Positions 16,001 through 62,847 of a DNA stretch of 64,000 bases are shown piece after piece (positions within the stretch are counted from its first letter, which is position 1; every line of letters begins with the position of its first letter). Both the position numbers and the translations under genes were made by a program. Source of the DNA: Monosporascus cannonballus (lineage: Eukaryota > Ascomycota > Sordariomycetes > Xylariales); assembly GCA_004154925.1 (NCBI GenBank), contig QJNS01000274.1, positions 1-64,000 of the forward strand, given 5' to 3'. Under the pieces are notes generated by a model. That model searched no databases, was not told the DNA's origin, and saw only the letters and a program-made list of their open reading frames with translations.

Positions 16001-16324
16001 TTTTAACCTTTTTCAAAATAAATAATATAATTTATTTATAGCTAATTATATTTAATCGCCTATAATTACAAATAGTTTGATCGAATCGTTATTATAAATC
16101 TTTAATCGAAAGGTTTTGTAATATATTTTATTATATTATTCGATTAATATTTAAAATATTTATACTTAGTTTAAAAACGATAATAAACACGACGATACGG
16201 ATAAAATTATTTAATTACTTTAAGTTATTATATATAGGAATTTGGTTTCCGTATAATATTTTGAAATTATAAAACTTAATAATTTTTTTAAAACTTTTAA
16301 TAAATATTCCCGGTTTATTATGGT
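10084..16324. other. Middle of X1: RIP-degraded, no gene identified
   Basis: This continues the sequence interrupted by element A. It is extremely AT-rich, with long TAA/TTA runs. Some frames on both strands are open apart from TAA/TAG, for example plus-strand 10105-10440 and the minus strand around 10900-11100. No conserved motif could be recognised. Part is presumably the coding capacity of the intact X1 element, since X2 lacks all of it. Confidence 0.5.
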
Positions 16325-17850
16325 TTTAATTAAATAATTACGGATATTTATGGTTTTCGCCTTATTATTAATATAAATAATAATTTTAATAATAAAACGT
16401 AAATTATTAAACTGGATTAAGCGGATATTATTTAATAATCCGGATATATTTATTATGAGAAAATTTAAATACTTTTAATTCGAACGTTAACCTTTAAGTA
16501 TAAAGAAAATAATAATATCGATTTCGGAACGATTAATATTAAAACGTTGGACCTCCGCCTTATAGCTATATCCAGTTGGGCCGCCGATTTGACGAAAACC
16601 GCTGTATTTCGCAATTTCTTTTATGGTATTATTAATAATTGCATTATAGGTAAATTAATACATATAAGCAAAAAAAATAAAACGTAAGTTACGGATATTA
16701 GCATATTTAAGCCGGAAGTTTTTTTATTTTAATAATTAATATATTTCGTTAATAATACTTAAATTATATTATCGTTCGAAAACAAGATTTAATATAGCAA
16801 TCTGGAATTAATTCTTTGATATTTATTTAGAATTAAAAATAATATAATTATCTTATCCGGCAATTATATTATCGAATATCTTTAAATTAAATATTTTCGT
16901 ATCCGCGGATATTAAAATAAAAGCAAAATATGGAATTATTAATATAAAAGTTCGTTATTTTTCCGTTAACTTAATTAATAATATAATTTAAATAATAATT
17001 AAATTAATTATTAACGAAAAAATTTAAATAATTAAAATTTCCTAAAGCTTATTTTAATAACGAAAAAAATATTAAGTTTTCCGAAATCCAGATTATATAC
17101 CGTATCGATTTATTTTTTCCGTAAAATACGGCCCTGCCCGCTAAATATAACGCCTAATATAAGGCAAATAAACCGACGGCGCAAAGTTTTTATAAGGTTG
17201 TTGGCCGTATACATAATATTGGCATATGGGTTAATTACGTTTATATCGGCAAAAAACCGGTAAAAATATCGGATAAAAATAAATATTTCGTTTTAAAAGG
17301 TTAAATACTTAAAGGTTTAAGGTATTTATCTTAAATTTTCGTATATATTATTTGCATTTAGCTAATTAAGAAAAAAATATATTTCGGGGCTTATAGGGTT
17401 ATATTATTATCGTACTGGCTTTAAGGGGGTAAAAGGTTATAATATATACTAATCGGGATTTTGGGATATTTTTTTATTATACTAATTTTTATTTCGTATT
17501 AATTAAAATCATTATTATATTAAAAGATAAAAATTTTAATTTTACGTTAAATTATATAAGTTAAAATGCTGGGAATTTCGTAATTAACATATATTGCTAA
17601 AGTTAATATTAATAATTTTTGCAAATTTGTATAAAAGCGTACCAAATGGAACGAAAAAATCACAACTTGCCACCTGGCCTTATTTTGGAGGTTCTGTTAT
17701 TTTTTGTAGGTATTATTTTTAAAGGAGTTTAACTGATATATTGGACCCCTGACAGATATTTCTTGATCAAAAGCTATAGCTGTGGCTACGGCTGCTGCGC
17801 CGCAGGCGCAGCCACAACCTCCAAAATGGGGTCCTGATCAAGATGAGGTA
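16325..17850. repeat. Right-hand conserved segment of the X family (X1 copy)
   Basis: This is present again at 37546-39065 (X2). Its last 0.9 kb is also at 48716-49485 plus 56258-56370 (X3). The plus strand shows long frames interrupted only by TAA/TAG, for example around 16550-16680 and 17060-17330, so it derives from coding DNA. No protein family could be assigned. The final 100 bases are much less mutated than the rest. Confidence 0.65.
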
Positions 17851-17852
17851 AG
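17781..17852 (+). pseudogene. Conserved Ala/Gln/Pro-rich N-terminal exon of an X-family gene (X1 copy)
   Basis: A GC-rich island in the AT desert encodes A-P-Q-A-Q-P-Q-P-P-K-W-G-P-D on the plus strand. It is conserved in X2 (39000-39060) and X3 (56298-56355). In all three copies the codon at the expected start is ATA, so an ancestral ATG changed to ATA is likely. In X1 the exon runs into GATGAG followed by GTAAGT, a good 5' splice site, after which similarity to X2 fades. The DNA also forms an inverted repeat (GGCGCAGCC with the preceding GGCTGCTGCGCC), but this is probably a by-product of the repetitive codons. Confidence 0.45.
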
Positions 17853-20800
17853 TTAGGTCGAGCTCTGACCGTCTTGTTCTGCCCTATATATCTATAAGGT
17901 GCTACTTAGAACTGTGATAATAATTAATATTTAATCATTAAATATAATCGTAATATCCAACGCATGCTTAATAACTAATTAATTTAATATTATAATTAAC
18001 CTAATTAATAAAATATGTTTTACTTTTTTCGATATATTTAAATTTTGCTTAATTACATTTGTATACGTAATATCAGAATCCCATAATAATTATTAAAATC
18101 TGAAAATCAACAATATTTATCGTAATATTAATATATTATCGCAATGCGTTAACCATATTTTAATTATTTATCAATATACTTTATTTTGTATATAAACGTT
18201 TTTTTCGAATGTATATTAATAATATTATTAATTTAAATATTAACGTCGACAAATATAAAAAATATTTAGATATTATATTAAATTTATTATATTAAACCTA
18301 AATTGATATTAACGCTACAACATCTTTTATTAGTTTTTTAATATTTTGCATATTTAATTATAACTTTAACGAAAACAAAATTTCAAAAACGGACAATCGT
18401 ATTAATAATTTCAGAAGATTAGTATTGTTTAACAGGTTTAATTTTTAAATTTTTAGTTTAAATATCATAATAGAATTACGTAAAAAGATCGTTAAATATA
18501 ATCTGAAAACGGTATTCTGCGAACGTAAAGTTTTAAATTATTAAATTAAACTTTGAAATAAACCAAATAATCGTGTATCTTTTAAGTTTAATCTAATTTT
18601 AGAAATAAAACAAGAACAAATAGACACTATTGTAAATTTATTCATGTACTTATTATATTACTTTTTATTATTAAAAAGATACCCCTTTTTAAAATAAATG
18701 TTTCCAAAAAGGTATATAGTATTATTCTGCCTTAACCGATTAATAAAAAATACGGTTAAACTATTTTATAGAGAAAGTTCACTCAAAATAAAAATTAAAT
18801 TCTTTTTATTTATATTAAAATTAATTTTTGATAGAGAAAAAAATACCAATTATGTAAAAGGAAAATAGTAATGTTAATATCTAATTACAGAAGATTACGA
18901 AAATCGGTTTAATTAAATCTATTTTTAATTAATATTTGGAACAATTTTACTTTTTTGCGGATTATTATTTTATATATATATTTTTATTTACCATAAACCT
19001 TAGTAAAATTATTTTGAAATTAAATATTATGATTTATTATTTTTTTAATATTAATTAAAAATATACCAAATGTTAAGAAACACTTAACGTAACACCTGTT
19101 ATATTATATTGTTTACTAACAATAGTTATAGACTTCAAAACAACCGAATCAAATAAACCCAACGAATTAACCAATATTTAGGAAAACGTTAAAGTTCAAT
19201 ATTTTCTAACAAAGGAAAATATTACGTTTTAAATTATTTCGATTTTAAGCATGATTTCAAAGGTTCTATTATTAAATGATATGGTATAAATGGCCGGTAT
19301 ATATACGTATATACCTTATTATAAGATATAAAAATAAACAAGTTGAACTAAAGAAATTTAAGATATAAAGAACTATATATTTATTATATTAACATTAAAA
19401 ACGTATTAATATATATTGAAAATAAATAATATTCTTCCGGCAAGGATATATAGTAAAAAACTTCCGTAATGTTTATTTTGCAAAAAGTATTATATAATTT
19501 CAAAATACTTCAAATTTTAATCGATTTGTAGAAAAGATTAAATTAATCGCTCTAAAATACCAGCACAATTATGATTTTTATTAATAATTATATTAAGACA
19601 TTAATCGAAAAATATAAATTTTGTTACGAATATACGGAAAATAATATTAAAGAATATTTTCGGCATTATTCAATTTCGACGTTTTAAACACTTTCTACAT
19701 AATATTAAATAAAGTCTTTAAAGAAATATTAAAATTAAGTAATTTACAACAGATAATTAAAATATTATGAATTGTAATTATAAACGATAGCAATCTAAAG
19801 TTTTCTTTTATCATAAAGAATAAAACTTTTAACATTTTCAAAACCAAGTTACTGGTTCTGTTAATTATTATTTATATATTGACAATTTACTAGAAAAAGG
19901 ATATTAAATCGTAAAAGTCGTAATATTTTTTATAGGATTATGAAACTTAGAATTTTAAAAATCAATATAATACCTGCTTTATATCATTATTTAAATAGTT
20001 TTTAACTATTATATTAAGAACATTACTAAATAAGTTAATATTTGATTTTTAAGTAAGATTAACGATAAATGTATTGAATTAATAGAAGAAAATAATTATA
20101 AATAATATAACAAGTGTCGAAAAAAGACTGAAATTCGAAAAAGTTTTTACATAGTTAGTATTATTAATATATCTTTCAATAAAACTAATAATTAATATAT
20201 TTTAATGAAATTAAATAAAAACGAAATCGAATAATTCGGGTTATATTAAAAATATTTTTATTAGATCAAATTAAATGAAAATAGTTCTTTACACGAGTAA
20301 AATTATCTACAACCTTGAAAAAAAACATAGAAACCTGGATTTATTAAGTAAACCTCTCTTATATTAAAACGGTATCTGGAATTATTTGATAAATATAACG
20401 TTATAAATTAAAATAAAAGAAAGATTCCATGAATAAAAAAATGCTTAAATATAGCCTTATAACTATAAACAGTAATAAATATAAATGAAAAATCGATAGT
20501 ATCGTTACCCGTAAATTCGCTAATATAAAAAAACATAATAATTAACTATTCTGTAAAATAAATAAATAATAGAGCTAAACTCGATCAATAACATTATAAA
20601 AAAGTCTATTTTTTACGATAATAAGGCGGTTGCCAAATACGAAACAAAATCCTGAATTAATTAGCCCGTTAAATATTAACAAGAAATTAAATTACTTCAG
20701 CAAATTTAAAATACCAGAAGATAAATATATAATTACAGGTTTTTATAAACGAATATAATAAAAATAATATTTATATTTACTAAATGGTTTTGAAGTATCA

Positions 20801-35945: not shown

Positions 35946-36212
35946 TGTTACGACCTGACGGGTTCCGGTCTCAGATAACGGTTAACGAGGATAATACGGA
36001 CCACCTTCCAGGTTAGGTAACGGGTACTTAGCAAAGATTTGCTAAATATAAATAATTAGTATTAAGTAACTATTTAATAAGATTTCGTTAAACATAATAA
36101 AGCAAAATTGAATAATAATATCAAAATTAATATATATACGTTCGTTAATTTCCATAATTTCAATAATATTACCTTATAATCATTATTTATTATTTAAAAC
36201 ATTTTTAATATT

Positions 36213-36224
36213 ACAGCCGTGGTG
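36213..36224 (+). other. Left half of the origin-like stem-loop of X2
   Basis: The sequence AC-AGCCGTGGTG follows TAATATT at the junction with the LTR. The ten bases AGCCGTGGTG are the exact reverse complement of 42089-42098. Confidence 0.65.
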
Positions 36225-36228
36225 CTTT

Positions 36229-36292
36229 GGTGTTTTACTAGGGTATTCACCAATCGGATATCTGGGATTCCGGATTTTTTTTAGTGTTTTAC
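36229..36292 (+). repeat. Candidate Rep-binding iterons, left side of X2
   Basis: GGTGTTTTAC at 36229-36238 and AGTGTTTTAC at 36283-36292 are near-direct repeats close to the origin-like end. Related motifs GGTGTCCTTAC (41990-42000) and, on the minus strand, GGTGTTCCTTAC (42081-42092) lie on the other side. CRESS replicons typically carry short Rep-binding repeats of this kind beside the stem-loop. Confidence 0.4.
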
Positions 36293-36481
36293 CAATGGGA
36301 AGCGTAGGAATTTTTAGCGCTGGTGTTCGTGCATCGGTATGGGCTTTTCCCGCGCTAGTGGATGCGCCAAAGTTCGTATTCGAAATTAGTTTGCTTTTTC
36401 GAGTTTTACTTGTATTAGTTTTTTCTTGACGTATGCGCTAAGTCTCGTATTTCAGCGCATTAGCACCACCTACTTTATTGA

Positions 36482-36625
36482 CGTTTTTCTTTTTTTCTTT
36501 GTTATTTAATTTTCTTTTTTTCTTTATCTATTTAATCTTTTTTTAAGTTTTTTTAATTCCCTATTCCGTTATCGTCGCCCTTATTATTATTATCGCCGTT
36601 ATCGCCGTTATCGTTCCAGGTTTTA
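36482..36625. repeat. Pyrimidine tract and TTATCGCCG-type simple repeat in X2
   Basis: A CTTT-rich tract (about 36482-36560) is followed by TTATTATTATTATCGCCG and further TTATCGCCG units (about 36590-36620). On the minus strand the second part would encode an Asn/Asp/Gly-rich stretch (N-D-N-G-D-N-G-D-N-N-N-K-G-D-D-N-G). Confidence 0.55.
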
Positions 36626-36731
36626 TCTTAATCGTTGCTATGGTACTGTTTGTTATTTTGATTATGCGCGTTAGTATTAACGTATTTTGGTTAATTCTTT
36701 TTCTCCATAACGTCAATATATTTTACCTTAG

Positions 36732-36848
36732 CTAGCTCAGGCCTTCCTGGCTCGTTTTCCCAATTTCTTCAAAGTCACTCAAGTACCGCTCCATGACGCT
36801 AAATATTAACCAATCAAATCCCAAATCCTCGTAACGAGCCAGCGAGGC
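36732..36848 (-). pseudogene. Terminal exon of an X-family gene (X2 copy)
   Basis: After an AG acceptor (CTTAG at 36849-36853), 38 codons run to a TAG without interruption. They read A-S-L-A-R-Y-E-D-L-G-F-D-W-L-I-F-S, then V-M-E-R-Y-L-S-D-F-E-E-I-G. The X1 copy at 1-83 is nearly the same protein sequence. It is the C-terminus of an unidentified protein. The upstream exon(s), at higher coordinates, are RIP-damaged and could not be traced. Confidence 0.5.
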
Positions 36849-37545
36849 CTAAGTTATAATTACGTAAAAACGGCTTTATTTGGTACATTTCCTTTTTCAA
36901 AAATACAAATATTCATAATAACTTAATAACAAAACGTTTTTTATAAATATATATATATATACCGTTATTTTTGTAATGGCTTATTATTAATACCATTTTG
37001 GTTTTGATTAGGACTTATTTGCTATTCCTAAACCATAACGTATACAATAGCTGTAGCCCGAGCCCGTTATGTTATTATCCTTTTTCTTAAAATGCGATAA
37101 ATTCGAATTCTTTCAATTTTACCGGATTACGCCCTTAAAACAAAATATACGTACGTATACCTTGAATTTCTGTTATTAATACATAAAATTAATATAACGT
37201 TTGAAAATTTTATTCGCAATTGGGTTTTTTGCGATAATTTAGGCCGAATTATTAATTCGACAGCTTAAATTAATCGATTAATTAACGTATAGAAAAATAA
37301 ACTAATACGTAAACGGCTGTTAATATACGAAAGTTCGTAAGAATTTTTAATTCCTGCTGATAAAGACCTCGTTATATTTAGATATCATAATATATTATAT
37401 AAAATCTTTATAGCTTTCGCAAAAGGGCCTGGAATCCGCCGCTCGTCGGAAAAGTTATTATTCAAAATTAACGTAATCCATACCACTTTGGACGAAAGTT
37501 AACGCTTTGTAAAAACGTTTACCTTTAATTAATTCAAACTTTTAT

Positions 37546-39065
37546 ATTAGGTAATTACAGATATCTCTAATTTTAGCACTATTATAAATATAAATAATAA
37601 TCTTAGTAATGGAACGTAAGTTATTAAGCTGGATTAAGGGGATATTATTTGATAGCCCGAATGCATTAATTATCAAGAAAATTAAATACCCCTAATTCGA
37701 ACGTTAATCTTTAGATATAAGAAAAATAAAAATGTCGATTTCGAGACGATTAATACTGAAATGCCAGACTTCCGCCTTATAGCCATATCTAGTTAGGCCG
37801 CCGATTTAACGAAAGCTGCGATATTTCGTAATTTTGTTTTTTGTAATATTCCTGGCAGTTGCTATATACGCAAATTAATATATATAAATAAGGAAAATAA
37901 AACGTAAGTTACGGATATTAACATATTTAAGCCGAAAATCTTTTTTTTCCGATAATAAATATATTTCGTCGATAGTAACCAAACCATATTACCGTCCAAA
38001 AATAAAATTTAATATAATAATTTGGAATTAATTATTCGATATTTATTTTGGATTAATGATAATATGGTTATATTATCTGGCAATTATATAATCGAATAGT
38101 TTTAAGTTAAGCTTTTTTATATCCGTAGATATTAAAATAAAAGCAAAATATAAAATTATTAATATAGAAATTTGTTATTTTTTTTAAATTTATGTAATAA
38201 TATAATTTAAATAATAATTAAAGATTTTCCGAAATTTATTTTAATAACGAAAAAGTATTAAGCTTTCCGAAAACCAGAATATATACCGTATCGATTTATT
38301 TTTTCCGCAAAATACGGCCTTATTTGTTAAACATAACGCCTAATATAAGGCGAACAAACCGACGGCATAGGGTTTCCGTAAGGTTATCGGCTATATACAT
38401 AACGTTAATATATAAGTTAATTATGTTTATATCGGCAAAAAACCGGTAAAAATATTGGATAAAAATAAACGTTTTGCTTTATAAGATTAAATATTCGAAA
38501 ATTTAAGATATTTTTTTCAAATTTTAGAATATATTATTCGTATTTGGTTAATTAAGAAAAAATATGTTCCGGGGTTTATTACGGGCGATTTTAAGCCCTA
38601 TATATTATATTTTGGCTTATAGGATTATATTATTATCGTATTCAGTTAAAAGGGGTAAAAGGTTATAATATATACCAATCGAGATTTTAAGTTATTTTTA
38701 TACTTTAATAATTTTTATTTATTTTTAATTATAATTATTATTATATTAAGGAATAAAGATTTTAGCTTTGCATTAAAATATATCAGTTAAAATATTAAGA
38801 GGTTCGTAATTAATATATATTATCAAAATTAATAATGATAAATTCTGCGAATTTATATAAAAATGTACTAATCGGAACGAAATATCATAATTTACTATCA
38901 GGCCTTATTTTGGAGGTTTTATTGTTTTTATGGATATTATTTTTAAAGGAGTTTAGCTGATATATTGAACCTCTGACAGATATCTCTTAATCAAAAGCTA
39001 TAGCTGTGGCTACGACTGTTGCGCCGCAGGCGCATCCACAACCTCCAAAATGGGGTCCTGATTAC
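37546..39065. repeat. Right-hand conserved segment of the X family (X2 copy)
   Basis: This aligns with 16325-17850 of X1 over its full length. The junction at about 37546 marks where X2 jumps from sequence matching position 782 of X1 to sequence matching about 16325. RIP is heavy except in the last 100 bp. Confidence 0.65.
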
Positions 39066-40350
39066 GCTAAGGCAAATTATATTGCTAGTTATAAGGCTTT
39101 CGATCTTAATTATATTAAAAAACCGTTACTCTATGATTTTTATTTTTTCAATCTTTGTTATCGGCTTTTTTCTTCTGATAAAAAATCTTTCCTTTATCTT
39201 TCGTTTCGTTTACGTAACTTAATTAAAGAATAACGTAAACGTTTTATTTTTTGGTGTTCGTTTTTTAATCCGTTTTACGACGATTATAATCGATAAACTA
39301 ATTATTATTTTTTTCGTTATTATACCTAAAGAGTAATTTGGCGGTTATTGCCGTTATTTTAAATATCCGCGCGTATTTTATCGGTTTGCGCGGGCTATTC
39401 GGAAAATTACGTTTATTAGTTACTCTATCGAAATATTTATCGAATAGCCTAATAAAATTCGGTATACTTTTATTATTTATACTGGAAATTTAAATTTTAA
39501 TTTCTTTAGTTCTTGTCAATAAATGTTGTCGGTTTAAAAATCGAATTACGCAAATTATTATTACTAGCGGCGTTCGGTTGGATTTTGATATTATTACGTT
39601 ACGCAATTATATTGCACGTATTTTAATTATACGGGCCTATAACGGGCCTAAGGGCAACATTTTTAATCCCGGTTTTCCAGGGTGTTTATAGTTATTTTAA
39701 TCTGCTGGGCGTTTTTTTAGTTTTATAACGGTTACGGATATTTACATATCTAATTTCTTATTTGGCGATAATACTATTTTGGAATTTGTTAAACCTAGGG
39801 CTTGTATTTATTAACCTATTCGGCGTAAAGTTAAAAAATGCGTTTTTCTCGATAAGATTTATAATAAGTATTTTATTTATGTTATTAATAATTTAAAAAA
39901 TCGACCTGTTAATATTTACTTCCTGATATTACGAAAATTAGAATTTAAGAATAATATTAATGGTTTTCTGCGTATTACGGGAGATATTCGGCTTAATTTT
40001 AATATTTATTTCCTTATTATGGTTTATGTTTCAGCTTTGTTTTATAGAAATTATTTTTCGGTTATTTAATTTATTTTAATAGAAATTAATTCCGAAAATA
40101 AAGGTAAGCCATTAATACATAAGCGTTTTGGCTCTTAATATCGGGTTCCTTTTCGGCTTAATACTTTATGCCGCTAATAATTTGGTTAATTGGATGTTTT
40201 TATTATTATTTTAAATCGAGTTATTAAATATGTTATATGTAATAAAATTTAGGAATATTCGGGCCATACTATATTAAAAGAAATCAAACATTTAATATTA
40301 ATAATTATCGTCGTTTTTTATATTTTTTAAAAATAAATTTAATGTTTCCG
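39000..40350 (+). pseudogene. Decayed plus-strand gene of X2, unknown family
   Basis: The frame opens at an ATA (39000) with the conserved A-P-Q-A-type start and P-P-K-W-G-P-D. It stays open to 39233 (F-D-L-N-Y-I-K-K-P-L-L-Y-D-F-Y-F-F), and continues in shifted phases. The segment from about 39570 to 40330 reads as one frame for some 250 codons with only TAA/TAG stops, for example G-V-R-L-D-F-D-I-I-T-L-R-N-Y-I-A-R and F-N-P-G-F-P-G-C. This pattern marks a real gene hit by RIP, with two or more phase changes that may be introns or indels. I do not recognise the family. Confidence 0.5.
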
Positions 40351-40921
40351 TCCTATTATTTAATATATTTATTCCTTTTATTTTTATTAGTAAAGGCTTT
40401 TTTATTTCTATGAAAACGTAATTTCCCTCTATTTATCTTTCGTTTACCCCTATATATTAACGTAAGTTTTCGTTAATTAGGTATATATAAAATTGTCCCT
40501 AATTAAGAAAATATATTTTCTATACGTATTTATTCGTAAGGGAAAAACTTTATTAATAACCGAATATTTATTTATAATATTTTAGTATTTATTTATTATA
40601 TAAAGGTATATCGTTTACCATTATATATTAATTATACGGGGATGATATAAAAATAATAACCTATTTTCCTATTATGTATATATATAGTCTTAATAAACAT
40701 ACCTATATTATTTTGTATATACGGATATTTCCGAATATATCAATATATTTTAATTGAATTATATTAATTTAATTAACTTGCTTATCGTAAAACTGCAGAT
40801 AAATTACTTTCACCGTGTCCATTTATATAAATTCCAGTTAATATATATAACTTTTTCCAAAAAAGAGGGTCCTCTTAAGGAACGAAAAAAAAAGGGCCTT
40901 AAAATAAGGGAGTTATGTTAT

Positions 40922-41925
40922 TCAAAATATATTTATATAATCGGAAAACAATGAAGTCCCTGGTCTAATATATGTTATGCAAAAAGATGTATTTTTATAA
41001 ATTAACGCCTTCGAGCCGCCGAGTTCGAAAGAAAAGGGGTGGGGGGGTACCCCTTCCGTAAAGCCGCAATGGCAACGGGCAAAATGTTTACCTGGTGGAT
41101 TTTCTAGGTTTTTTTCAACCTAATCCAAGGCCTCTTTTAGTAGGTCCCATATTCCGTCAAATTTCGGTAAGGTATATGTAGGTATCGAAAGTTTAAAGTG
41201 GTCGTCTATATAAGAGCGTATATTGCCGTAATTAAATATCAATTCTTTAGGTACGTCCGATTTAAAATGAGATACGAATTTGTCCTTATTGGTAATTATC
41301 TTCGCTATTAACCAAAAGTCTTTTTTGATTTTTTTTAATAACTTTAATTCTATTATGTTGCTGCCGATATAGGTTAAACGTCTTTTGCTTTTATAGAAAT
41401 AGCGCCAAGCCGTTAATTTATTACCTATCCTGGCGATATTTAAGTATAATCTCTTAATGTTAAAATAACGTAAATTCTTTAATTTTTTTGTATCTATTTT
41501 CTAATTCCATAGAAATAAGGAATACCGTTTTTATGTTTTTCGCAGATAACCTAATATTGTTAAAAATTAAATTTGTCGATTCTTATTATAAACTTTTATG
41601 GGTTCAAGTAGCATTTCGGGTATGTTAAAAAGACGGATTTGGTCGTTAATTTAAATCGGCCCGTATTATCGGTAAGTAGGTTTTTTAGGATTAGTTTTCA
41701 AACGCTTTTTCGTATATTTAGTATAATTTATACGGTACTAGTAATTTATGCTTCGAAGTCGAAAAAGTTATCTGGTTATCTATTAAAGGGCCAGTTATTT
41801 ATAACTGCTTTAGGTTTATCTAAAATAATAAAATTAAGAAATGATTCTAAGTTATCGGGCATTAATACCTAAACCGGTATTATTACCTAAAATAAAGAAT
41901 GTGGAGATATGATTTGTAATGCCAT
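40922..41925 (-). pseudogene. Rep-like (HUH endonuclease) gene of CRESS/geminivirus type, decayed
   Basis: Replication initiator proteins of this class nick the origin nonanucleotide and start rolling-circle replication. On the minus strand a frame from ATG 41925 (alternative ATG 41862) reaches F-L-T-Y-P-K-C at 41611-41631, the standard motif I of geminivirus-type Rep. About 30 codons later, where motif II should have two His residues, the frame has P-Y-F-Y (41509-41520). Both changes fit C-to-T. This first part has many TAA/TAG stops. Near 41480 the phase shifts; the second part is open to a TGA at 40922-40924 with a single TAG and resembles the Rep oligomerisation region (N-I-R-S-Y-I-D-D-H-F). 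No motif III or Walker-type helicase could be located. The gene reads away from the origin-like end, as in CRESS replicons. It is not functional. Confidence 0.6.
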
Positions 41926-41989
41926 TTTGTAAATATGAAATTAATGTTTAGGTTTATTTTACTGTGCATTTTGGGATATTAGGTTTTTT

Positions 41990-42092
41990 GGTGTCCTTAC
42001 GTACTTAGTTTGTGTTTGTTATTTGTTGGTTCGTTTCATTATGTTGTTTTTTGTTATACGTATTGGTTTGCGTGATTTGGAGTAAGGAACAC
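41990..42092. repeat. Candidate Rep-binding iterons, right side of X2
   Basis: GGTGTCCTTAC at 41990-42000 and its inverted relative at 42081-42092 (GTAAGGAACACC on the plus strand) flank the region between the Rep start and the stem-loop. They share a core with the repeats at 36229 and 36283. Confidence 0.4.
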
Positions 42093-42116
42093 CACGGCTA
42101 AAAACTTTTAATATTA
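42089..42116 (+). other. Right half of the origin-like stem-loop with TAATATTAC
   Basis: CACCACGGCT is followed by AAAAACTTTTAATATTAC. TAATATTAC is the invariant geminivirus nonanucleotide, cut by Rep between TAATATT and AC. The nonanucleotide alone could arise by chance in AT-rich DNA. The exact GC-rich stem at both element ends and the adjacent Rep-like gene make it meaningful. Confidence 0.65.
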
Positions 42117-42248
42117 CAATACCGTTTTTATACATTAAGTAAATATAATACGTTATTATATTTATTATTTAGAATTTTTGAATATTTTTATTCTTATAAA
42201 TCCGCAAAATTACGGTTTAATAATTAATTAAACCTTTTAACCGTTATA

Positions 42249-48337: not shown

Positions 48338-48715
48338 CATTACGACCTAACGAGTTTCGGCCTTAGGAAACGGTTAACGAAGATAATACGGACTACCTTC
48401 CAGGTTACCTAAGGGATATTTAGTAAAAATATATTAAGTACAAATTATTAGTATTAAGTAATTACTTAATAAGATCTCCCTAAGCATAATTAAGTACTGA
48501 TAAGCCGTAATATCAAAACTAATATATATACGTTTGTTATTTTCTATAGTTTAAATAATACCAGCTTATAATAATAAATCGTTATCCAAGACGCCTTTGG
48601 TATTACGAGACGTGATACGTTATTATATTTATTGCTCAGAATCTTACGATATTCCTGCTAACATATATCCGTACGACTAAGAATTAATAGTTGGTTAAAC
48701 CCCCTAGCCGTCGTA
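48338..48715 (+). repeat. 3' LTR of element D
   Basis: This 378-bp LTR starts at 48338 (CATTACGACC, expected TGTTACGACC) and ends CCGTCGTA. It shows the uninterrupted sequence at the X2 insertion point (TTTGGTATTACGAGACG at 48597-48613). The target duplication ATAAT follows. Confidence 0.88.
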
Positions 48716-49485
48716 ATAATCGATTTAAAAATAAAAGATAATTTTTAAGACTTATTTAAATAACGAAAATGATATTAAAGTTTTTGAAAACCAGATTATG
48801 TACCGTATCGATTTTTTTCACGTAAAATAGAGCCTTGTTCGTTAAATATAGCCCTTAATATAAAGCAAACAAACCGACAACGAAAAGTTTTTATAGGTTT
48901 ATCGACCATATATAAAATATCAATATATAGGTTAATTACGTTTATATCGATAAAAAACCGGTAAAAATATCGAATAAAAATAAATATATTATTTTGTAAA
49001 ACTAAACACTTAAAGTTTTAAAATATTCATCTTAAGCTTTCGAATATATTATCTGTATTTAACTAATTTAAAAAACTATATTTCAGGATTTATTATAAAC
49101 GGTTTTCAACTTTATATATTATTATTTTAATTCGTATAATTATAACATTGTTATATTAATAAAAATAAAATCACGAGTTAAAATATATATTAAACGATGT
49201 TTTTTATTATTTTTTTGAACTAATAATGTTAATTCCATCTTATTTAAAACTAAATATATATATATATAAAATAAAGATTTTATTTCTGTATTAACTTTCC
49301 GTAACTAGAATTTAAGTGGCGTTAAACTATATTTATAGTGATAAGATTTATTTTAATAATTATTAAAAATTTATATAAGGATTTATATAAGGGTCTCGAA
49401 AAATTAAAACTTAATATTCAGCCTTATTTTAAAGGTTATATTCTTTTTATAAATAAGATTCTTAAAGGGGTTTAGTTGATATATT
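48716..49485. repeat. X3, left part: third copy of the X-family right-hand segment
   Basis: This aligns with about 17040-17745 of X1 and 38240-38960 of X2, for example around ACCGTATCGATTT at 48800. It begins directly at the right-hand target duplication of element D and is interrupted by element C at 49486. The rest is at 56258-56370. Confidence 0.7.
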
Positions 49486-49834
49486 TCTTATAACCTAACG
49501 AGCTGTGGCCTCGAGAAACGGTCGTAACAAGAAAATGACTAAGCCATATGGGTCGAATCACGTGATGGCTCGACAGGATCTATCGTAAAGCCCATAAAGC
49601 CAGGCTCGATAAGGTCGAAAAGATAAAATATAATACTCTTATTATTTCCATAATTTAAATAATATTAATTTGTAATATTTGTTAATATTAATTATTTATA
49701 ATACGATTTTTGTATTTTTGGTATTAAAAGACGTAATTAAGTTATTTTATTATTACAGAGTATTACGATATTTCTGTTAATATGAACCCGTACGATTAAG
49801 GTTTAATAATTAGTTAAACCCTTTAGCCGTTATA
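49486..49834 (+). repeat. 5' LTR of element C
   Basis: This 349-bp LTR has one copy of a 36-bp unit (around GCTCGACAGGATCTATCG) that is duplicated in the 3' LTR. Confidence 0.88.
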
Positions 49835-50870
49835 CGTTGCAAGTTTTTATTCAGTAATACCGTCAGACTTTGAATAATATCGCCGATATTATGTTTATCA
49901 GTAAACAGCTCAAATAGCCCATTTACCAGATCTCTGATAACCCGGATATTGGAACAAAATTCGAAAAAAAAGAAAAAATTTCGTTTTTTTCGCGGAACAG
50001 TTTTTCGACGCCTGGATACTATAAACGAACGCATTATTCAGTTTAAAAAAGATAATACTGATTTTACGACATCCTTTTAAGCCGCCTATAAAAAGCTTAA
50101 AAAAAGGAAAATTTTCGAAACCGGAACACTTTTTTAAGCAAATTAAGTGATTTAGTTAAATTTTACTAAACAATCAAAAAAGGTTTTTGAACATTTTAAA
50201 TTAAAACTATTTAACGGAACCTCGATAAAGTTAAAACTATTTTTAAAATAATACCAAATATATTTCGGGTATTTTTTTATTCGATTTATTACGTTTATTA
50301 TATAAGTAAAATTCGTAATCGGACGACTAATCGGAAATAGAATTATTTAGTTCGAACTCGTTATAAAGAAATATATTATGTTATTAATCGAAAAACGAAA
50401 CCCGGAAATAATACGAATTTATAATATATACAATTAATTTAAATAAATATTAATAAAGGTTTTCGGATTAATACACAGAAATTAAAAGCTGAAATGTAAA
50501 TTTAATACTTATAAGCAAAAGAATTAATATTTAATTACCGTAATACGTGTAATTAATTAATATTTAAATTAAATTAAAAATATAAAAGAAATATTTTTAG
50601 ACCTAATTAGCTTAATTATTTATCGGATTATATCGTTATAGTAATTAAAATTAACGATCGATAATACGTTTACCGTATTAAAAAATACCAAAGGAAAAAA
50701 TAATAATAAATCCCCATATACGGCCAATACTAGTACTTTTCGATACGATAACACTTTTTACGGCATAGAACTAGGACCTATAGAATAAGGAGCCATTTAT
50801 AGGAAACATTGGAGCCAAACCAAATACTTTAATTATAATAAAATAGGGCATAAGACAATATAGTATAAGG
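49835..50870 (+). pseudogene. gag of element C
   Basis: This follows the 5' LTR and aligns with D gag. The zinc knuckle at 50825-50866 reads Y-F-N-Y-N-K-I-G-H, then K-T-I-stop-Y. All three cysteine positions are Tyr (TAC or TAT) while the His is kept, a clean illustration of G-to-A RIP on the coding strand. Confidence 0.7.
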
Positions 50871-55872: not shown

Positions 55873-56257
55873 TATTATAACTTAACAAACTGCGGCCTCG
55901 GAAAACGGTCGCAACAAAAAAATAATTAAACTATGTAAATCGAATTACGTAATGGCTCGACAGGATTTATTGTAGAGCTCATAAAGCCAGGCTCGATAAG
56001 ATCTATCGTAAAGCCCATAAAGCCAGGCTCGACAGGGTTAAAAGGATCAAATATAATACGCTTATTATTTCCATAGTTTAAATAATACCAGCTTACAACA
56101 TATATTAATATTAATCGTTTGCAATACGACTTCTGTACCTTTGGTATTAAGAGACGTAACTAAGTTTTCTTATTGCTACAGAGTCCCACGATACTTCTGT
56201 TAACATAAACCCGTATGACTAAGGTTTAATAGTTGGTTAAACCCCCTAGCCGTCACA
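55873..56257 (+). repeat. 3' LTR of element C
   Basis: At 385 bp it is 36 bp longer than the 5' LTR because the unit GCTCGAYARGATYTATYG-to-CCAG occurs twice in tandem (about 55952-56024). It ends CGTCACA, followed by the ATATT duplication. Confidence 0.88.
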
Positions 56258-56370
56258 ATATTGGACTTTTGATAATTACTTCTTAATCAGAAGCTATAGT
56301 TATAGCTACGGCTGCTGCGCCGCAAGCGCAGCCACAACCTTCAAAATGAAGTCCTCATTGCGATGAGACA
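56258..56370. repeat. X3, right part, at the edge of the AT-rich block
   Basis: This continues X3 after element C and includes the third copy of the GC-rich A-P-Q-A-Q-P-Q-P exon (56298-56355; the ATA start is at 56298). Similarity to X1 and X2 fades after GTCCTCATTGCGATGAG. Normal base composition begins shortly afterwards, so the compartment border coincides with the end of the repeat. Confidence 0.65.
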
Positions 56371-58121
56371 AATCACATGGAATTTGTATCGAAAAATACA
56401 TTATTAACCGTCTTCTTTTTAACAACTTAATAATAACTTAAGTAAGTCGTGATACACTGTAATTCTTAGGAAACAGCAGAATCATTAATAATGCTGCTTT
56501 GCATATAAATTGTGTAAGGATTGACATTCTAGGCAATTCCAGTACTTCGTGAGCCTGGTGGAGGAACTAACATTATATACTCCCGTCTATTGCATGCCCC
56601 CGTTTTAACAGCGTCAAATTTGTAATCCGACCCGTACGCACAATCCGTATGATGCGCTTACCTTTACTTTCCTATTTGCGCGAGCCAAAACCTAAATGCG
56701 GAAGTCGGCTCTAAGGGAAGCGGAATTTTCGACATAATAGCCCTCGTCCACTTCCTTCGTAAGCTCACTACGTTAAAACGAGAGCATTACCAGACGTAAC
56801 TAGTATCTCTATTAGTCGGATTTCCACGGTATAACTGCCAACCTAAACCGTACCACTAGCTTTAATAGTTTTAACTATACCAACTGCCCCACTACTTGTG
56901 CACTCGTACTAACAGTTAATATCTCTAGCCTGCTCAGAATCCAGCCAACCCATGCTGGGAACTATGACGCTCCGGATTTGTCAGCCACGCTTGGTCGCAC
57001 TACGCTAATCTAAATACGTATAATGTTTACAATGAAACCAAACCATAACCCCATTACATGCGTTGTTCAGCTGTCATAGAATAGGGGTATCTGTGTTAGT
57101 CATCAAGGGCCCAGTACCCCGGAAAACCTTTATTCCGGCGCGTCCACAATATATAGAGAGCTTCCTAGCCACCGCTCCCTAGAGCTCACACCTAGTCAGA
57201 CAATTATCACTTCTCATACTCTACGTTACCTTATCTACCGATCAGTTTAACTGTGACATCAGCGGTCCTTGGAGGACCGTTGGATACTCCTAATAGTGGT
57301 ATTGGCAAGTTGACATCTCGTATCATTTCCCCGAACGCGGCCGCCTACGACTGCCCATGCCCGCCAACATTTGTAAGCCAACATTTATAAGCAGAGCGGC
57401 CCGTAAAATTACCAGTGCTCTCATGGACTAAGATGACGAAAGTGAGTCAAGCAGTCGGACCCCATTAGATAGATTATACAGTACACAGGGTATTTTCTGT
57501 TAGTTTCCTCCTCCGGGTTACTGTACATCAATATACGCCTGCATACAAATTTGTATTTTGAATAGACATAGCCCAATACTTTCGTTATGCTTAGCACTAT
57601 CAGGCGATATTACAAGTCGATCCGGAAGCAAGTAGTTTATGTACATCCCATGCAGTTTTCATAGGACTTTACATTTTAACCCTTCACGGCAACACCTGGG
57701 ACGGTGGAGGCAACTAACAGAAAATACCTTTGAATACTGTACTGGTAGGGTGAGTGGAACCCCTGGCAGCTGTGAATAGTCATACGGCAATAGGAGCCTT
57801 CAGGCTAGTTACATCCGTTTTGGTGCCCCTCGGAATCGGAACGGGCGGATTGAGATTATGTGTAAACTGTCTGCTAGACTAAGGCAGGAGGTTGCGGCAA
57901 GAGTCCCTAGAACCCCTACGCTAACATTAACCCTGCCTGAAAGGTTTCCGGTAGGAACTTCCGGTCCCATCTCCCTACGGAAGTGACTATAATACCTATA
58001 AATATCGCCTAGGTTGTCCACACATCTGATTTAGATGTTGGTCACTCGCGCCGAACAATACGAAGTACCGCACCATCAACATAGAACGACTTGAACTCTC
58101 GACGCATTCGTCAAATTCATC
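56371..58121. other. Gene-free stretch of normal composition
   Basis: No frame on either strand is long, coherent or family-like. TATATAGAGAG at 57151-57161 is followed by a CT/CA-rich stretch (GCTTCCTAGCCACCGCTCCC) that resembles a fungal core promoter and 5' leader, yet no ATG-led frame follows, so it may be a relic. A near-direct repeat GCCAACATTTRTAA occurs twice near 57361-57391. The last 150 bp presumably hold the promoter of the DUF1993 gene. Confidence 0.5.
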
Positions 58122-58768
58122 ATGCCGTCCCTCTACGACATCAGTATTCCAATCCTGACCAAGGTCGTACGGGCGGAGCTGCACCTCATTAAGAAGGGTA
58201 CGGACTGGGCCACGGAGAAGGGTTCGCCTCTGAAGAACTTGTGAACTGGAGAATTCACGAAACCATGTTACCCCTATGGGCACAAGTCGCCATCACTACC
58301 GGGCACACCAGGCTTGCTATCAACTACCTAACCGGTAGCACGTTTCCAGTAATGGAGATCAAAGAGGCCATACCATTGGAGGGGCTGCATGAGATGATCA
58401 ACACACCCCTCAAGCAGTTGGCGGGTGTTACTAGCGCTGAGAAGGTCTCTGCTGAGGAATCCACGATGGTGGCTTCTAAGTTAGGGGACAGGCAGTGCCA
58501 CTTAACGGTGGTGGACACCCTCCAATTTTACACGATGCCGGACGTCTATTTCCACATCACCACATTATACGACATCTTGACGATGAAAGGTGTGCCCTTA
58601 GGCAAGATCGAATTTCTAGGACCCTTCCTCGAGAGTGCGTTGAGTAGCAGAAATTATGACCCAAGACAACCGAGAAAAGTGGCGAAGGAGAACGTTGCTA
58701 CGAAACTGGGGTGTGTTTATATCACGGCTTCCTGTTGGGATATGCATGGGACCGACCAATTCACGTAG
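58122..58768 (+). pseudogene. DUF1993-family protein gene with a one-base frameshift
   Basis: The ATG at 58122 opens M-P-S-L-Y-D-I-S-I-P, the typical start of DUF1993 proteins, and is read for 40 codons to a TGA at 58242. The rest of the family pattern continues in the next phase: E-E-L-V-N-W-R-I-H-E-T-M-L-P-L, then V-Y-F-H-I-T-T-L-Y-D-I-L and G-V-P-L-G-K, ending at 58768. A single missing base in AAGGGTTCG near 58219-58224 accounts for the break. DUF1993 proteins are small (about 170 aa) soluble proteins of unknown biochemical role, common in fungi and bacteria. The downstream part is otherwise intact, so this is either a recent pseudogene or a sequencing error. The 3' end faces the deoC relic. 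Confidence 0.8.
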
Positions 58769-58989
58769 TTGTTGCTTGGTAATACGTGGACCATGCTTGC
58801 CCTTGTATCTCGACCTGACCTAAGACCAACCTGGGGTGACTTTTACATAATTGGGTTTAATCTAAGCTATGACTAGCGGTCGTGTTGGCTTTACTATATA
58901 AGTAAATATATACAACAGAAATAGTCCGTGTCTGCACAATCACACAAGTTCCAGATTCCCATTCTCTCAATGGGTTCCACCCGCTGTGC

Positions 58990-59713
58990 CTACCATAACT
59001 TGAATTGGAATCTCAATAGGTCCGTGGCCGATTCCCAGCCTGGCAGCCTCTTCAAGAATGTCAGTGTGGATGTGGCTGCTATACGTATGATGCCGATGGA
59101 CATAGCAAAGAGAAACTCGTTAACAACCCTGATCCCTTCAGCAGCCTTGATCCGCACAGTTGGGCCGACGCTGTCCAGCATGAGTCCCATGTGCAGGACT
59201 GTGGCGTTTCTGTGGATGTAGTGTCCATTGGCCCTCTTCACGAAATCGTATCCGGTTGACGTCTTGACGGGAGTTACCGATGACTCGGTGCAGGTCTTGC
59301 AGAGGCGAACGTTGCGGGCATCGGCAAGGAAGCTGTTCTTGGACTTGATCCCAAGACTGCCGCGTGGGTCGACCGCCGCGCTAATGACATACTCCCAGTC
59401 GCCGCTGGGCAGTTTCCAACATTGACCGCCATGCCGACCTCTTGCGCGCCAACTTTGACGGCCCCCCTCAGTTTTCAGGACCTCGATGGGGGTTTGGTGC
59501 TACCGTGGACTTCCCCCACCGCGGCAGAGATGCGTACCTCGGTGCCATCCCGGACCTCTATAGCTGCGGTGATACTGTATGGATTGATGCAGACGACGGC
59601 AACTCCGAAATTCTTGGCTAACAACAACCTTTCAAGGATCTCGACATCCATCTTCGACTGATGTAGTTCGAGTGACCAATCACCTTGGCGTTCCGATGCA
59701 GAGACGTCATCAT
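58990..59713 (-). pseudogene. deoC: Deoxyribose-phosphate aldolase (DeoC) relic
   Basis: DeoC splits 2-deoxyribose-5-phosphate into acetaldehyde and glyceraldehyde-3-phosphate in nucleoside catabolism. On the minus strand the frame starts at ATG 59713 (K-V-I-G-H-S), shifts to E-I-L-E-R-L-L-L-A-K, then V-V-C-I-N-P-Y-S-I. It continues through G-E-V-H-G-S-T-K and V-G-A-Q-E-V-G-M-A-V-N-V-G. After another phase change comes V-K-T-S-T-G-Y-D-F-V-K, then I-K-A-A-E-G-I-R. The Schiff-base Lys (V-K-T-S-T-G) and the second Lys (I-K-A-A) remain, but the catalytic Asp of the E-I-D-M motif is Gly (E-V-G-M). At least four phase changes, two of them at C5 and G6 runs, break the gene. A short TATA-like stretch lies just upstream. 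Confidence 0.82.
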
Positions 59714-60071
59714 AGACCCTATATAAAATGTATGGCGGAGGAGAATGTTGGAGAGTTATCGATGGAATCTGCTGTTGACTAATAGTCCTTTGCGAGAAAA
59801 CCAGTGAGTTGTGGGACAGAGTGGATGTCTATTTGGAGGCAGGTCAGCTTGCAATGCTCACATATGGAGAATAGAGAAAGTCGACTTTCTGAACAGCTAC
59901 TAAGCGACATACCAGAGGCGAAAACGCTACCAAAAGAATACGCTGGAAAAGACTAAATCGAAATGAAAACTCAAAACTGATAGCAAACGCTAAGGCACAA
60001 GTTGGAGTTGGGTTGGTTAAGGGGATGTAGGCCCCTGCCGAGAGCCGGTTGGGGGGGCGGCGACCGGAGGA
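59714..60071. other. Spacer with no gene seen
   Basis: This is upstream of the deoC relic and downstream of the possible exon at 60072-60272. CTATATAAAATG at 59719-59730 (TATA-like in both directions) would fit a promoter of the relic. No coherent frame was found. Confidence 0.4.
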
Positions 60072-60272
60072 TTACGCAGTGTAACGTGGAGAGTCATATG
60101 GAGGTGGCGGAATGTCGGCATCATAGAGGGGAGGACGATCTTCCGGGTCCGGGTTGGGCAGCACGGCGGCGCCCATCTCACGCAGGAGGCAATGGAGCTC
60201 ATCCCGCGGGGAAGGGGGCGGAAACAGGGCGGCACCAACGGCCCACAAGACGAGAACACCGAAAAACAGTTC
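60072..60272 (-). CDS. Possible terminal exon of an unknown gene, 66 codons plus stop
   Basis: After a TTTAG acceptor (60273-60277 on the plus strand, reverse), the minus strand reads E-L-F-F-G-V-L-V-L-W-A-V-G-A-A-L-F. Next comes D-E-L-H-C-L-L-R-E-M-G and a Pro/Asp-rich tail ending P-P-P-P-Y-D-S-P-R-Y-T-A before TAA. A hydrophobic segment followed by a PPxY-containing acidic tail is typical of a membrane protein C-terminus. Upstream, GTAAGC at about 60357 and GCTAACT near the acceptor could make an intron, but no ATG-led first exon was found. The plus-strand frame at 60002-60349 is Arg/Gly-rich and looks like a shadow. Confidence 0.25.
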   Translation of the reverse strand, partial: ELFFGVLVLWAVGAALFPPPSPRDELHCLLREMGAAVLPNPDPEDRPPLYDADIPPPPYDSPRYTA

Positions 60273-60277
60273 CTAAA

Positions 60278-60841
60278 GTATATTGTTCGCCCATCACACA
60301 GTTAGCCCACAATCTTAGTGTGAATGAATTGGAGGATTGGAGGCGGTAAAGTGGGCTTACAGAATGTTCCGTTGAAGGGGGAGAGAAAGAAGAAAAATAC
60401 CCGGGGTTTTGAGAGGTGCGTCTAAATCATTCCCAGTGCCCATCACTCTTAGCACGTCAAAGGAAACCGCTAACTTAGTTGACTTACGTCCAGCTAAAGC
60501 AGCTGAAGACGCCATTTTACAGTCGGTAGGAAGGAGTTGAAGCAGTAGGGCTCAGCGCACTTGCCGTACGAGGAATGAGGTATACGGTGGTAATGACCAC
60601 CTGGGGTTTTGCTTCAGACACGCCGCCATGGCAACTTCTTGACCTACTCAGCTTTGATTTCAGGGGTAAGATGCCCGGAGTCTGCAGAAAATCCCGATAA
60701 CTCATTAACGTCCATTTCTTACCGCATCCTCGTTTCTGTGAAGGTCCAGTCGCAGTACGTCTCCCCTACCTCGTCGATCTAGAGTGTGGGATTTGAGAGG
60801 GTACAACCCGTTCAAAGGGATGGGTACCCGCCTGGTTTACC
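60278..60841. other. Spacer downstream of the transcription factor gene
   Basis: This contains the 3' flank of the transcription factor gene. A 62-codon minus-strand frame at 60517-60705 has no family features. Nothing else is supported. Confidence 0.4.
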
Positions 60842-62847
60842 TTATGCCCAAAGTGCTTGCCAGTCAAACCAATTAGACGAGGCACCAAAGTCGAGATTTC
60901 CTTCCAGAGCGGCATCTACGGCATCGAGGTCGAAAGTGGGATCCAGATGGCCGAAAACGTCCAGATCAGGAGCGGCGCCTAAGAATGATGGGTCGACGTT
61001 TCCTCGCTCATGCGGTTGGCGGGTGGGTTCCTCTGGGACTGCCACAGTCGGCCCCACGCCGTCACCGGTAGGTATGCCAGCATTCCTCGAGGGGTCTGCC
61101 GTTTGAGACTCTTGGGAGGTAAGCGAAGCGACGGCCTTGTCCATCTCTTGGAGTACTTGCTCTGCCATGGAGGCCATAACCTTGGCAGTCCAGAATATAC
61201 CTCCTAGTGATTTCAGGAGCTGTGTGTTTTTCTGGAAATCCTGCTTGCCGCGGTTCCTGAACATGGGAACATCACTATATCGCATTTTTCGATATGCTAC
61301 GCTCAATGACAGTGATACGCCGTAGGGAATAATGGGCATGTATGATACTTGCTCGTTATATTCCTGGCTAACGATTGATGTTATGCGATTGGCGGAGAGG
61401 GAACGGCGGCTATTGGTTGCCGGAGGTGGCAATATGCTGGTAGTCGTCATCCCGCCTGATGGGAGCCGACATGATAGTATGGAAACTGAGTGATAGAGGA
61501 CTTCTAAAGAGGCTGTCGACTCGTCAGCAACTATATCTTGGACTCAAACGGCACAGTCATAAGCCCATACCTAGGAAGGCACTTGGAACTTTGGTCGCAC
61601 CGGCATCGATGATCATCTGCTCGAAGATGGGCAACTCGATTACCTTCACCTCCTGTATAAGCAAGTTTTTCGGGCGATATAGGTCTATGACCTTATCGAG
61701 TAATCTCACAACCATCAGGAACAAGCGGAATGGAGCAGATTGTGCCTCAATGCAGGCGTCTAAGTCCCATCCGATATCCCGCTCGTGAATGAGAAGCGCC
61801 CGGCCGTATAGGGACGAAGTGATCCTATCCAATGCCCACAGACAGCAGAATAGCGATCGCGTGCTGATAAAATCGTCCCTATCTCTATCCGCCGCCAAGT
61901 GGAGGCCGAGTGTGTGCATCTGATGCACCGCATCGGTGAACGCACGGGCCGGCTGGTCAGCTTCTTCGGGGCACGTGGGCTGCATGTACAGTGAAAAGAC
62001 TAGAAGTATCCGGGTCTCTATTACCCGATCCGTGATGAACCCGGCATCGATTGTTGTCCGTATAGCAGTGGAAAGCGCAGCGCTAAATTCGTTGCGGCCC
62101 AGTAGACCCTCTCGATTTTGTAGCCGAAGGTGAGGTACAGCCTCCGGTTCTGAGGCCGCGGCTAGGCTCACTACCTGCTGTAAAACAATCCATGCTATCT
62201 CATCTTCAGGAGGTCTCGCCAGATGAAGACTGATAGCCGGGAAGAGGGGATCAAGTTTCTCTACATAGATACGACGGAGAGCGACAAAATCGGAGGCGGG
62301 CGGGCGACAAGGGAGATAGGAGACCTGGACATGAGGCTTCAAAATGCCCTGTGTAGTACGGCCCGACGTTGATTCTTGCCCGGTTGCTGAACTCGCCGAA
62401 CAAGGTTTGTCCGGCACACGAGACTGCCATACCCCTACGCCTCCTCGGATAGAATGGTCCCGGCTCGAGTAAGGACTAGTTACTTCAATGAACATGCATT
62501 CAGGGTTCATGTCGCCGACAAACCTGGAGACGCGGCCTGCCGTGTTTGTGATATCAGTCTGTGTGGCCGGCGCTGTCGATGGCGATTTGCCATTGCTGGA
62601 TGCTGTCTGGAGATGCCGATCCGTTCTGGGCTGAGACTCCTTATCATTAGCGGCTTTATTTGTCGCAGAGCATGGAGGATGTCCCGATTTGCCATGTACG
62701 CATCGCTTCTACTTTACATCGTCAATATATGACCATAGTTAAGGACATATAACAAACCTTGCGGCGCCGGCAAAGTGAGCAGGCCTGTGCGACTTGCTTA
62801 CGCTTGAGAGGGAAGCCGGCCGAGTCGGAACCCACAAACTTGACCAT
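60842..62847 (-). CDS. Zn-cluster fungal transcription factor, three exons, about 632 aa
   Basis: Exons are complement(62758-62847, 61571-62708, 60842-61512). The introns of 49 and 58 bp have GT...AG ends and phases that fit. The start has an in-frame TGA four codons upstream. Residues 23-33 give C-S-L-C-R-R-R-K-K-R-C across the first intron, the first half of a Zn2Cys6 cluster; a fourth Cys follows nine residues later, but the usual following Cys are not seen. Exon 2 carries the fungal-specific transcription factor domain: R-R-I-Y-V-E-K-L-D-P-L-F-P, then L-G-L-H-L-A-A-D-R and C-C-L-W-A-L-D-R. Exon 3 has the conserved P-Y-G-V-S-L-S-L-S-V-A-Y-R-K-M-R and an acidic tail rich in D, F and W (D-L-D-V-F-G-H-L-D), a likely activation domain. 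It probably acts in the nucleus, perhaps on the divergent DUF1479 gene. Confidence 0.88.
61513..61570 (-). other. Intron 2 of the transcription factor gene
   Basis: This 58-bp intron has donor GTATGG, branch-like GCTGACG and acceptor ACAG. It joins S-A-F-L to S-L-E-V-L-Y-H-S-V-S-I-L-S-C-R in phase 1, restoring the usual family sequence. Confidence 0.8.
62709..62757 (-). other. Intron 1 of the transcription factor gene
   Basis: This 49-bp intron has donor GTTTGT, a branch-like TTAACTA, and acceptor TAG before AAGCGATGC. It splits the zinc cluster after R-R-R-K, a common intron position in this family. Confidence 0.8.

Follow-up and report, generated by a model that had tools for sequence, protein, structure and literature searches.

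Transposition by HUH enzymes is known from the IS200/IS605 elements, Helitrons and Replitrons, some of which enter short fixed targets, and geminiviruses carry two opposed genes, with the replication protein (Rep) encoded on the strand opposite the nonanucleotide strand. The geminivirus Reps listed in PMC7826260 cut at TAATATT*AC, and viral stems are given there as 9–11 bp. For fungi, Liu et al. (2011, PMC3198968) described a geminivirus-like transposon of Tuber melanosporum that has 37-bp terminal inverted repeats, no obvious target duplication, two transposase open reading frames (ORFs) and copies more than 95% identical. It was the only fungal geminivirus-like transposon returned by a search of the open-access literature. 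Here we describe X2, an element in a 64-kb stretch of Monosporascus cannonballus DNA (contig QJNS01000274.1, positions 1 to 64,000, hereafter the window), and the family to which it belongs. The X2 family is probably a mobile element of about 3.5 kb that has the halves of a geminivirus origin as its ends and was spread by rolling-circle replication through its own geminivirus-like Rep. In the genome we find the family with its ends and its target, two target sites that have uninterrupted relatives, a pair of opposed genes, and motifs I and III of Rep; cutting of TAATATT^AC by Rep, at the joined origin and in the host target, is predicted, and we infer the cutting and joining from these features. 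A first-pass annotation of the window, made from the letters alone, had proposed a rolling-circle (CRESS/geminivirus-type; CRESS, circular Rep-encoding single-stranded) element with origin-derived ends, and the family, the hairpin and the Rep motifs agree with it.

The closest precedent of the X2 family is the truffle transposon, which is likewise repeated in a fungal genome and encodes a geminivirus-like Rep; the Rep ORF is interrupted in both. The X2 family is set apart by its 10-bp stem halves, a loop at the right end and TAATATTAC at both junctions, and also by an opposed gene with an arginine/tyrosine (Arg/Tyr)-rich start, several diverged sublineages and the absence of a transposase from the pieces searched. 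The first-pass remark that X2 could not be matched to a described fungal transposon class has to be narrowed, since the truffle element was described in 2011, although its ends and genes do differ. In ends, target and gene content the X2 family departs from the truffle element.

Geminiviruses and CRESS-DNA viruses (PMC7826260, PMC6668415) share with the family a hairpin of similar stem length with TAATATT^AC in its loop, motifs I and III of Rep, and a central-domain-like piece. The layout of two opposed genes, in which Rep and TAATATTAC are on different strands, is likewise that of geminiviruses. Unlike CRESS viruses, the X2 family consists of chromosomal unit-length copies at nonanucleotide sites, with an 18-nt loop and no superfamily 3 (SF3) helicase recognised. 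The bacterial pCRESS plasmids are also Rep replicons integrated in chromosomes, but their borders are described in PMC6668415 as direct repeats taken as attachment sites, whereas the border of the X2 family is the origin nonanucleotide. IS200/IS605 elements, Helitrons and Replitrons differ in enzymes, ends and targets, and their enzymes are not of the geminivirus Rep kind.

Ends of the element and origin hairpin

A typical copy starts with (TAATATT)AC-AGCCGTGGTG and ends with CACCACGGCT-(G/A)AAAACTTT-TAATATT(AC). The ends of X2 are made up as follows.

36206–36212, plus strand: TAATATT adjoining the left end of the element, in the rolling-circle reading the half of the target that the host supplies; 25 of 33 left ends have it exactly
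36213–36224, plus strand: left end of the element, AC and stem half AGCCGTGGTG
42090–42115, plus strand: right end of the element, made up of CACCACGGCT (stem half), AAAAACTTT (loop) and TAATATT
42116–42117, plus strand: AC, the last two bases of TAATATTAC at the right junction, which belong to the host in the rolling-circle reading
36226–36330, plus strand: iteron-like GGTGTY of the left end (36229 and 36322 in X2)
41990–42093, both strands: iteron-like GGTGTY of the right end (41990 plus, 42088 minus)

The exact inverted repeats announced by the first-pass annotation were found in place, AGCCGTGGTG at 36215–36224 and its exact reverse complement at 42090–42099. These two are the only matches to the stem in the window at one mismatch or fewer (0.33 expected; 2 reached by 5 of 100 shuffles). 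TAATATTAC bounds X2 on both sides (36206–36214 and 42109–42117). Once joined, the ends fold into a 10-bp stem with an 18-nt loop containing TAATATT^AC (−11.4 kcal/mol, z −4.3), which is the origin-type stem-loop that had been anticipated. The right end is asymmetric, with 9 further, mostly conserved bases between CACCACGGCT and TAATATTAC.

Iteron-like repeats had also been reported on both sides, and GGTGTY indeed lies near both ends of X2. It occurs six times in copy C21, always within about 140 bases of an end (6 reached by 0 of 300 shuffles), and five times in C95 (5 reached by 2 of 300); of these counted repeats, one at each end overlaps the stem.

Taken alone, TAATATTAC is at chance level in the AT-rich window (9 occurrences, a number attained in 16 of 100 shuffles, against 6.45 expected). 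Chance occurrence thus holds for the motif by itself and was ruled out for the family by pattern counts in the genome containing the window (88.8 Mb, 618 contigs; copies are named by contig, C1, C2 and so on). The right-end pattern CACCACGGCT-N(2–20)-AATATTAC was found at 13 places and the left-end pattern AATATTACAGCCGTGG at 15, with 0 for the reversed control of each. Element-internal patterns tolerant of repeat-induced point mutation (RIP), for which the nonanucleotide was not required, gave 32 left-end and 28 right-end places. The ends tabulated were 33 on the left (the 32 pattern places and C3; C254, which reads TAATATTAC, was left out) and 27 on the right (25 of the 28 pattern places, C20 and C90; the loop-less matches C95:110953, C104 and C356 were left out as chance). 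TAATATT is exact in 25 of the 27 right ends as well; its density on the plus strand of the window being 0.0019 per base, the 25 exact left ends among 33 are not due to chance.

Copies of the element and nested DNA

By position and orientation, 24 copies could be paired end-to-end in the genome, X2 included. The search for further copies with the same stem halves, suggested by the first-pass annotation, was therefore productive, and these copies end at the same bases rather than elsewhere. Sixteen of the 24 measure 3.4–3.6 kb (C5, C20, C21, C30, C45, C68 twice, C91, C95, C112, C207, C245, C289, C311, C467 and C522). The others are longer: C3 with 5.4 kb, X2 with 5.9 kb, C1, C2, C90, C108 and C571 with 10.3–11 kb, and C157 with 24 kb. 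At C157:205129–229264, where the left and right ends are 24 kb apart, the copy may be heavily nested or may be two partial copies.

36213–42115, plus strand: whole integrated unit X2 (AC...TAATATT), 5,903 bp including the nested insert
about 36726–39072, no strand assigned: nested repeat insertion with ends CCTTAGC...GCTAAGG, which splits gene 2 and is foreign to the element (compared copies lack the insert)

The boundaries first proposed for X2 (36213–42114) hold, except that the unit is one base longer, and the proposed 5.9 kb is correct as the distance between the ends, the element's own length being about 3.5 kb. The present size would stem from a later nested insertion: X2 is longer than a typical copy because it holds a 2.35-kb repeat with inverted ends CCTTAGC...GCTAAGG, absent inside the other copies compared. 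Pieces of this repeat recur at window positions 1–792, 16324–17855 and 48713–49485, in line with the earlier remark that the interior has segments shared within the window.

The placement of extra DNA, from gene positions and alignments, covered X2, C1, C2, C3, C90, C108 and C571. The extra DNA precedes gene 2 in C1, separates the two genes in C2 and C571, interrupts gene 2 in C3 and X2, and in C108 and C90 falls within Rep or at its start. Since these places differ among X2 and the six long copies, the extra DNA is later nesting. The idea that X2 carries cargo, put forward by the first-pass annotation, was rejected on this ground and because two thirds of the paired copies (16 of 24) are of the short size.

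No intact gene was found, as no frame spans Rep or gene 2 in the fourteen copies and the window listed, several of them in part, and the longest frame on the gene 2 strand in one listing of copies has 164 codons. Indices of the RIP type, judged by the usual thresholds, are present in X2 and C21, and RIP would have broken the genes of the element after insertion.

Target sites within host repeats

Beyond TAATATTAC the flanks differ among copies when compared by eye, except for copies sharing a host repeat. Several copies sit inside two abundant host repeats, and several share one position of such a repeat. A 35-base pattern of the first repeat, uninterrupted across the target, was found at 3,339 places (reversed controls 1 and 0), and the corresponding pattern of the second at 1,922 places (controls 0). 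Both patterns had one (A/G)(A/G)TATTA(C/T) built in, and sites were read from the first 100 places each; among the places listed, the first repeat often reads GGTATTAC or AGTATTAC at the site, and also AATATTAC. Another stretch of the window, at about 48560, reads GGTATTAC. The first repeat, which flanks X2, is also present at window positions 48392–48614 and 49644–49982 and is a repeated target.

49644–49982, plus strand: an element-free relative of the host repeat that flanks X2; its divergence at the junction makes it weak evidence for an empty site

In the second host repeat, C91, C289 and C245 are inserted at the same nucleotide. C91 and C289 differ by 0.017 transversions per site, whereas C245 differs from them by 0.054 and 0.055, and the nearest relatives sit at other sites (C91 and C30, 0.013; C245 and C467, 0.026). 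With different sublineages at one nucleotide and their closest kin elsewhere, the copies C91/C289 on the one hand and C245 on the other are best explained, on these distances, as independent insertions.

A Rep-like gene and an opposed second gene

The coding remnants of X2 are the following.

41599–41697, minus strand: piece of the Rep-like gene, GRF...FLTYPKC (motif I); Gemini_AL1, E=0.026, below cut-off
41123–41500, minus strand: piece of the Rep-like gene, open over 126 codons, with LNIA (PNI-like), YFYK (motif III) and a part resembling the central domain; match to Gemini_AL1_M (E=0.061) below cut-off
36561–36671, plus strand: Arg/Tyr-rich start of gene 2 (capsid position); the ATG codon of 10 other copies is CTA here
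39078–40136, plus strand: main part of gene 2, encoded on the TAATATTAC strand and interrupted by stop codons in X2; ends approximate, projected from C21
about 40303–40556, plus strand: second stretch without shared stops (shared-stop mapping), 85 codons, an exon or a small third gene

The Rep piece is present in all 24 paired copies (34 matched stretches). As the first-pass annotation had noted for its gene with FLTYPKC, the Rep-like gene starts near one end, the right one, and reads inwards, its strand being the complement of the one with TAATATTAC. Six stop-free motif I pieces, taken from six copies and combined into a profile, gave six matches in the PDB at E≤10, all of them replication proteins, the best at E 4e-4 with GRF...K..FLTYPKC aligned. 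Two of these, 6we0 and 1l2m, we take to be the Reps of wheat dwarf virus and tomato yellow leaf curl virus. In Pfam, Gemini_AL1 and Gemini_AL1_M were each the sole family listed for the two X2 pieces, and in the right order; the matches count because these families were expected beforehand, their E-values alone being weak. The profile check proposed for the minus-strand gene thus led to Reps only with motif I and weakly to the two geminivirus families with the X2 pieces.

Motif III, RYFHK or RYFYK in several copies and in the window as judged by eye, fits the YxxK given for CRESS-type Reps in PMC6668415. It is preceded by (F/L)(H/Y)(P/L)NIA, and HPNI is named in PMC7826260 as the DNA-bridging stretch of wheat dwarf virus. 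Motif II is degraded (YFHV in C30, Y/H variants elsewhere); RIP is able to convert His codons into Tyr codons. In the Rep of 14 copies, motifs II and III are separated by an A-rich run that varies in length and shifts the reading frame. Judged by its motifs, the minus-strand gene is geminivirus-Rep-like.

Gene 2 was recognised in 22 of the 24 paired copies (34 matched stretches) and is missing from C20 and from one C68 copy. It runs for 357 codons without a stop common to 75% of copies, and transversions are in excess at third positions (35/35/69, p 0.0002; 38/33/65, p 0.001, relatedness of copies ignored). The excess and the shared open frame indicate that gene 2 encoded a protein under purifying selection in the past, while the sublineages diverged. 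A stretch meant as a non-coding control is also position-biased (49/37/26, p 0.03); it has no long open frame over its whole length, and the 85-codon frame was mapped just beside it. An 83-aa piece of the 85-codon stretch had no Pfam match.

The Arg/Tyr-rich stretch before gene 2 was seen in 21 of the 22 copies examined, the exception being C1, where it is interrupted. Arg and Tyr make up 19–24 of 36 residues (best window, any frame), and the ATG is at the same place in 10 copies. The tract is built of CGN-TAY-like units and has no codon-position signal (15/19/19), and may be of microsatellite origin. Downstream of it many copies share the position of a stop, beside GTACGT, which suggests an intron in gene 2. 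Rep and gene 2 are opposed, and once the ends are joined the hairpin lies between their starts. CRESS capsid genes typically have a basic start and are opposed to Rep in this way, and by its position and Arg/Tyr-rich start gene 2 is a candidate, though unproven, capsid gene. Profiles of gene 2 found nothing in the PDB or one ribosomal protein at 0.12, and the Pfam/NCBIfam searches of element pieces also gave weak matches to unrelated families.

Surroundings of X2

GC content jumps from about 24% (1–56000) to about 50% (56001–64000), so that the window is an AT-rich repeat block beside a gene block. The latter contains a DUF1993 gene (58265–58768), a weak Fungal_trans match below cut-off (61557–62510) and a Gig2-like protein (63440–63928). 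The Fungal_trans match, the RIP-type indices and the AT-rich block next to GC-rich DNA would agree with an ascomycete genome.

Mechanism and alternative explanations

According to the proposed mechanism, Rep would nick TAATATT^AC at the joined origin, release the strand AC...TAATATT, nick a host TAATATT^AC and join the strand there. The host would supply the left TAATATT and the right AC, and the element the rest. Such nicking and joining would explain the asymmetric right end, the TAATATT on the left, the AC on the right, the insertion of monomers and the target. A bolder proposal, which we regard as possible but rather doubtful, is that the element is a fungal single-stranded DNA (ssDNA) virus living as a transposon, with Rep and capsid, its unit-length monomers being integrated by Rep at the chromosomal nonanucleotide, so that the origin sequence would double as the integration site.

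Several observations speak against rolling-circle spread by a geminivirus-like Rep. The 18-nt loop of X2 exceeds the 10–13 nt of viruses given in PMC7826260, GGTGTY is not significant in C91 (three copies; 28 of 300 shuffles), and no joined origin or circular form was seen in the assembly, where all 8 pattern matches at three mismatches or fewer are ordinary right ends. For Rep, third positions show no significant excess of transversions (14/13/25, p 0.08; 15/19/21, p 0.6), no SF3 helicase was recognised in the pieces searched, the genes being broken, and a 71-aa piece over motifs I–II had no geminivirus match in Pfam. Unrelated families reach 0.018–0.024 with other element pieces, which weakens the 0.026 and 0.061 obtained for Rep. 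In the PDB, the 126-aa X2 piece and the motif III profile retrieved no Rep (six unrelated matches from 0.084 upward and three from 0.1 upward, respectively). The PF00799 profile found nothing in the genome, as it found nothing in control genomes, and viral contigs searched with two Rep profiles yielded no relative. Three protein-database searches, with the gene 2 halves and the Rep piece, gave no relative among proteins of 0.55–1.75 times the piece length, a range that could miss full-length relatives. The flat codon-position signal of the Arg/Tyr tract and the noise among the Pfam matches slightly lower the odds of rolling-circle spread and of the virus reading. Finally, the left and right 9-mers are identical in 14 of the 24 paired copies, a result that a 9-bp target duplication would produce as well. 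The right side is exact in 22 of 24 and the left in 19 of 24 (25 of 27 and 25 of 33 over all ends), an asymmetry that leans as rolling-circle replication expects without reaching significance (by pairs p 0.25, by exactness 0.16 and by transversions 0.07).

It is on this last point that a DDE cut-and-paste transposon making a 9-bp target duplication, with a strong preference for TAATATTAC and Rep as a passenger, has its case: the identical 9-mers suit it, the mismatch test does not separate it from rolling-circle replication, and it predicts the same uninterrupted sites. The truffle element, moreover, is described as having transposase ORFs beside Rep (PMC3198968). Such a transposon would not be expected to have an inverted repeat that is non-terminal on the right, 9 mostly conserved bases short of TAATATTAC, nor a target that is the cutting site of Rep recreated by the joined ends, and no transposase family was found among the pieces searched, which cover part of the element's DNA. 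We therefore judge it unlikely. An integrated ssDNA virus fossil multiplied passively with host repeats would account for the several copies inside the two abundant repeats. Many flanks look unrelated by eye, however, two sublineages occupy one host-repeat site, and the close copies C30 and C91 (0.013) lie at different sites, which makes passive multiplication very improbable. Least credible of all is a Helitron or another known rolling-circle transposon class: enzyme motifs of the rolling-circle type are present, but Helitron ends are defined as 5' TC and 3' CTRR and those of the family are AC...ATT, the Rep motifs are of the geminivirus type with a one-tyrosine YxxK, and no helicase family appeared in the pieces searched, with no search aimed at RepHel.

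The X2 family touches on whether ssDNA viruses can turn into transposons and on how CRESS genomes enter chromosomes. In two dozen insertions a single nine-base sequence marks the junctions and the target and is also the predicted cutting site, and thousands of uninterrupted relatives of the target allow comparison; Rep-driven integration is therefore directly testable. The arrangement also suggests a rule for finding such elements in other genomes, namely an inverted stem whose two halves are each flanked by TAATATTAC. If rolling-circle spread by Rep is true, the family would be a predicted link between ssDNA viruses and transposons.

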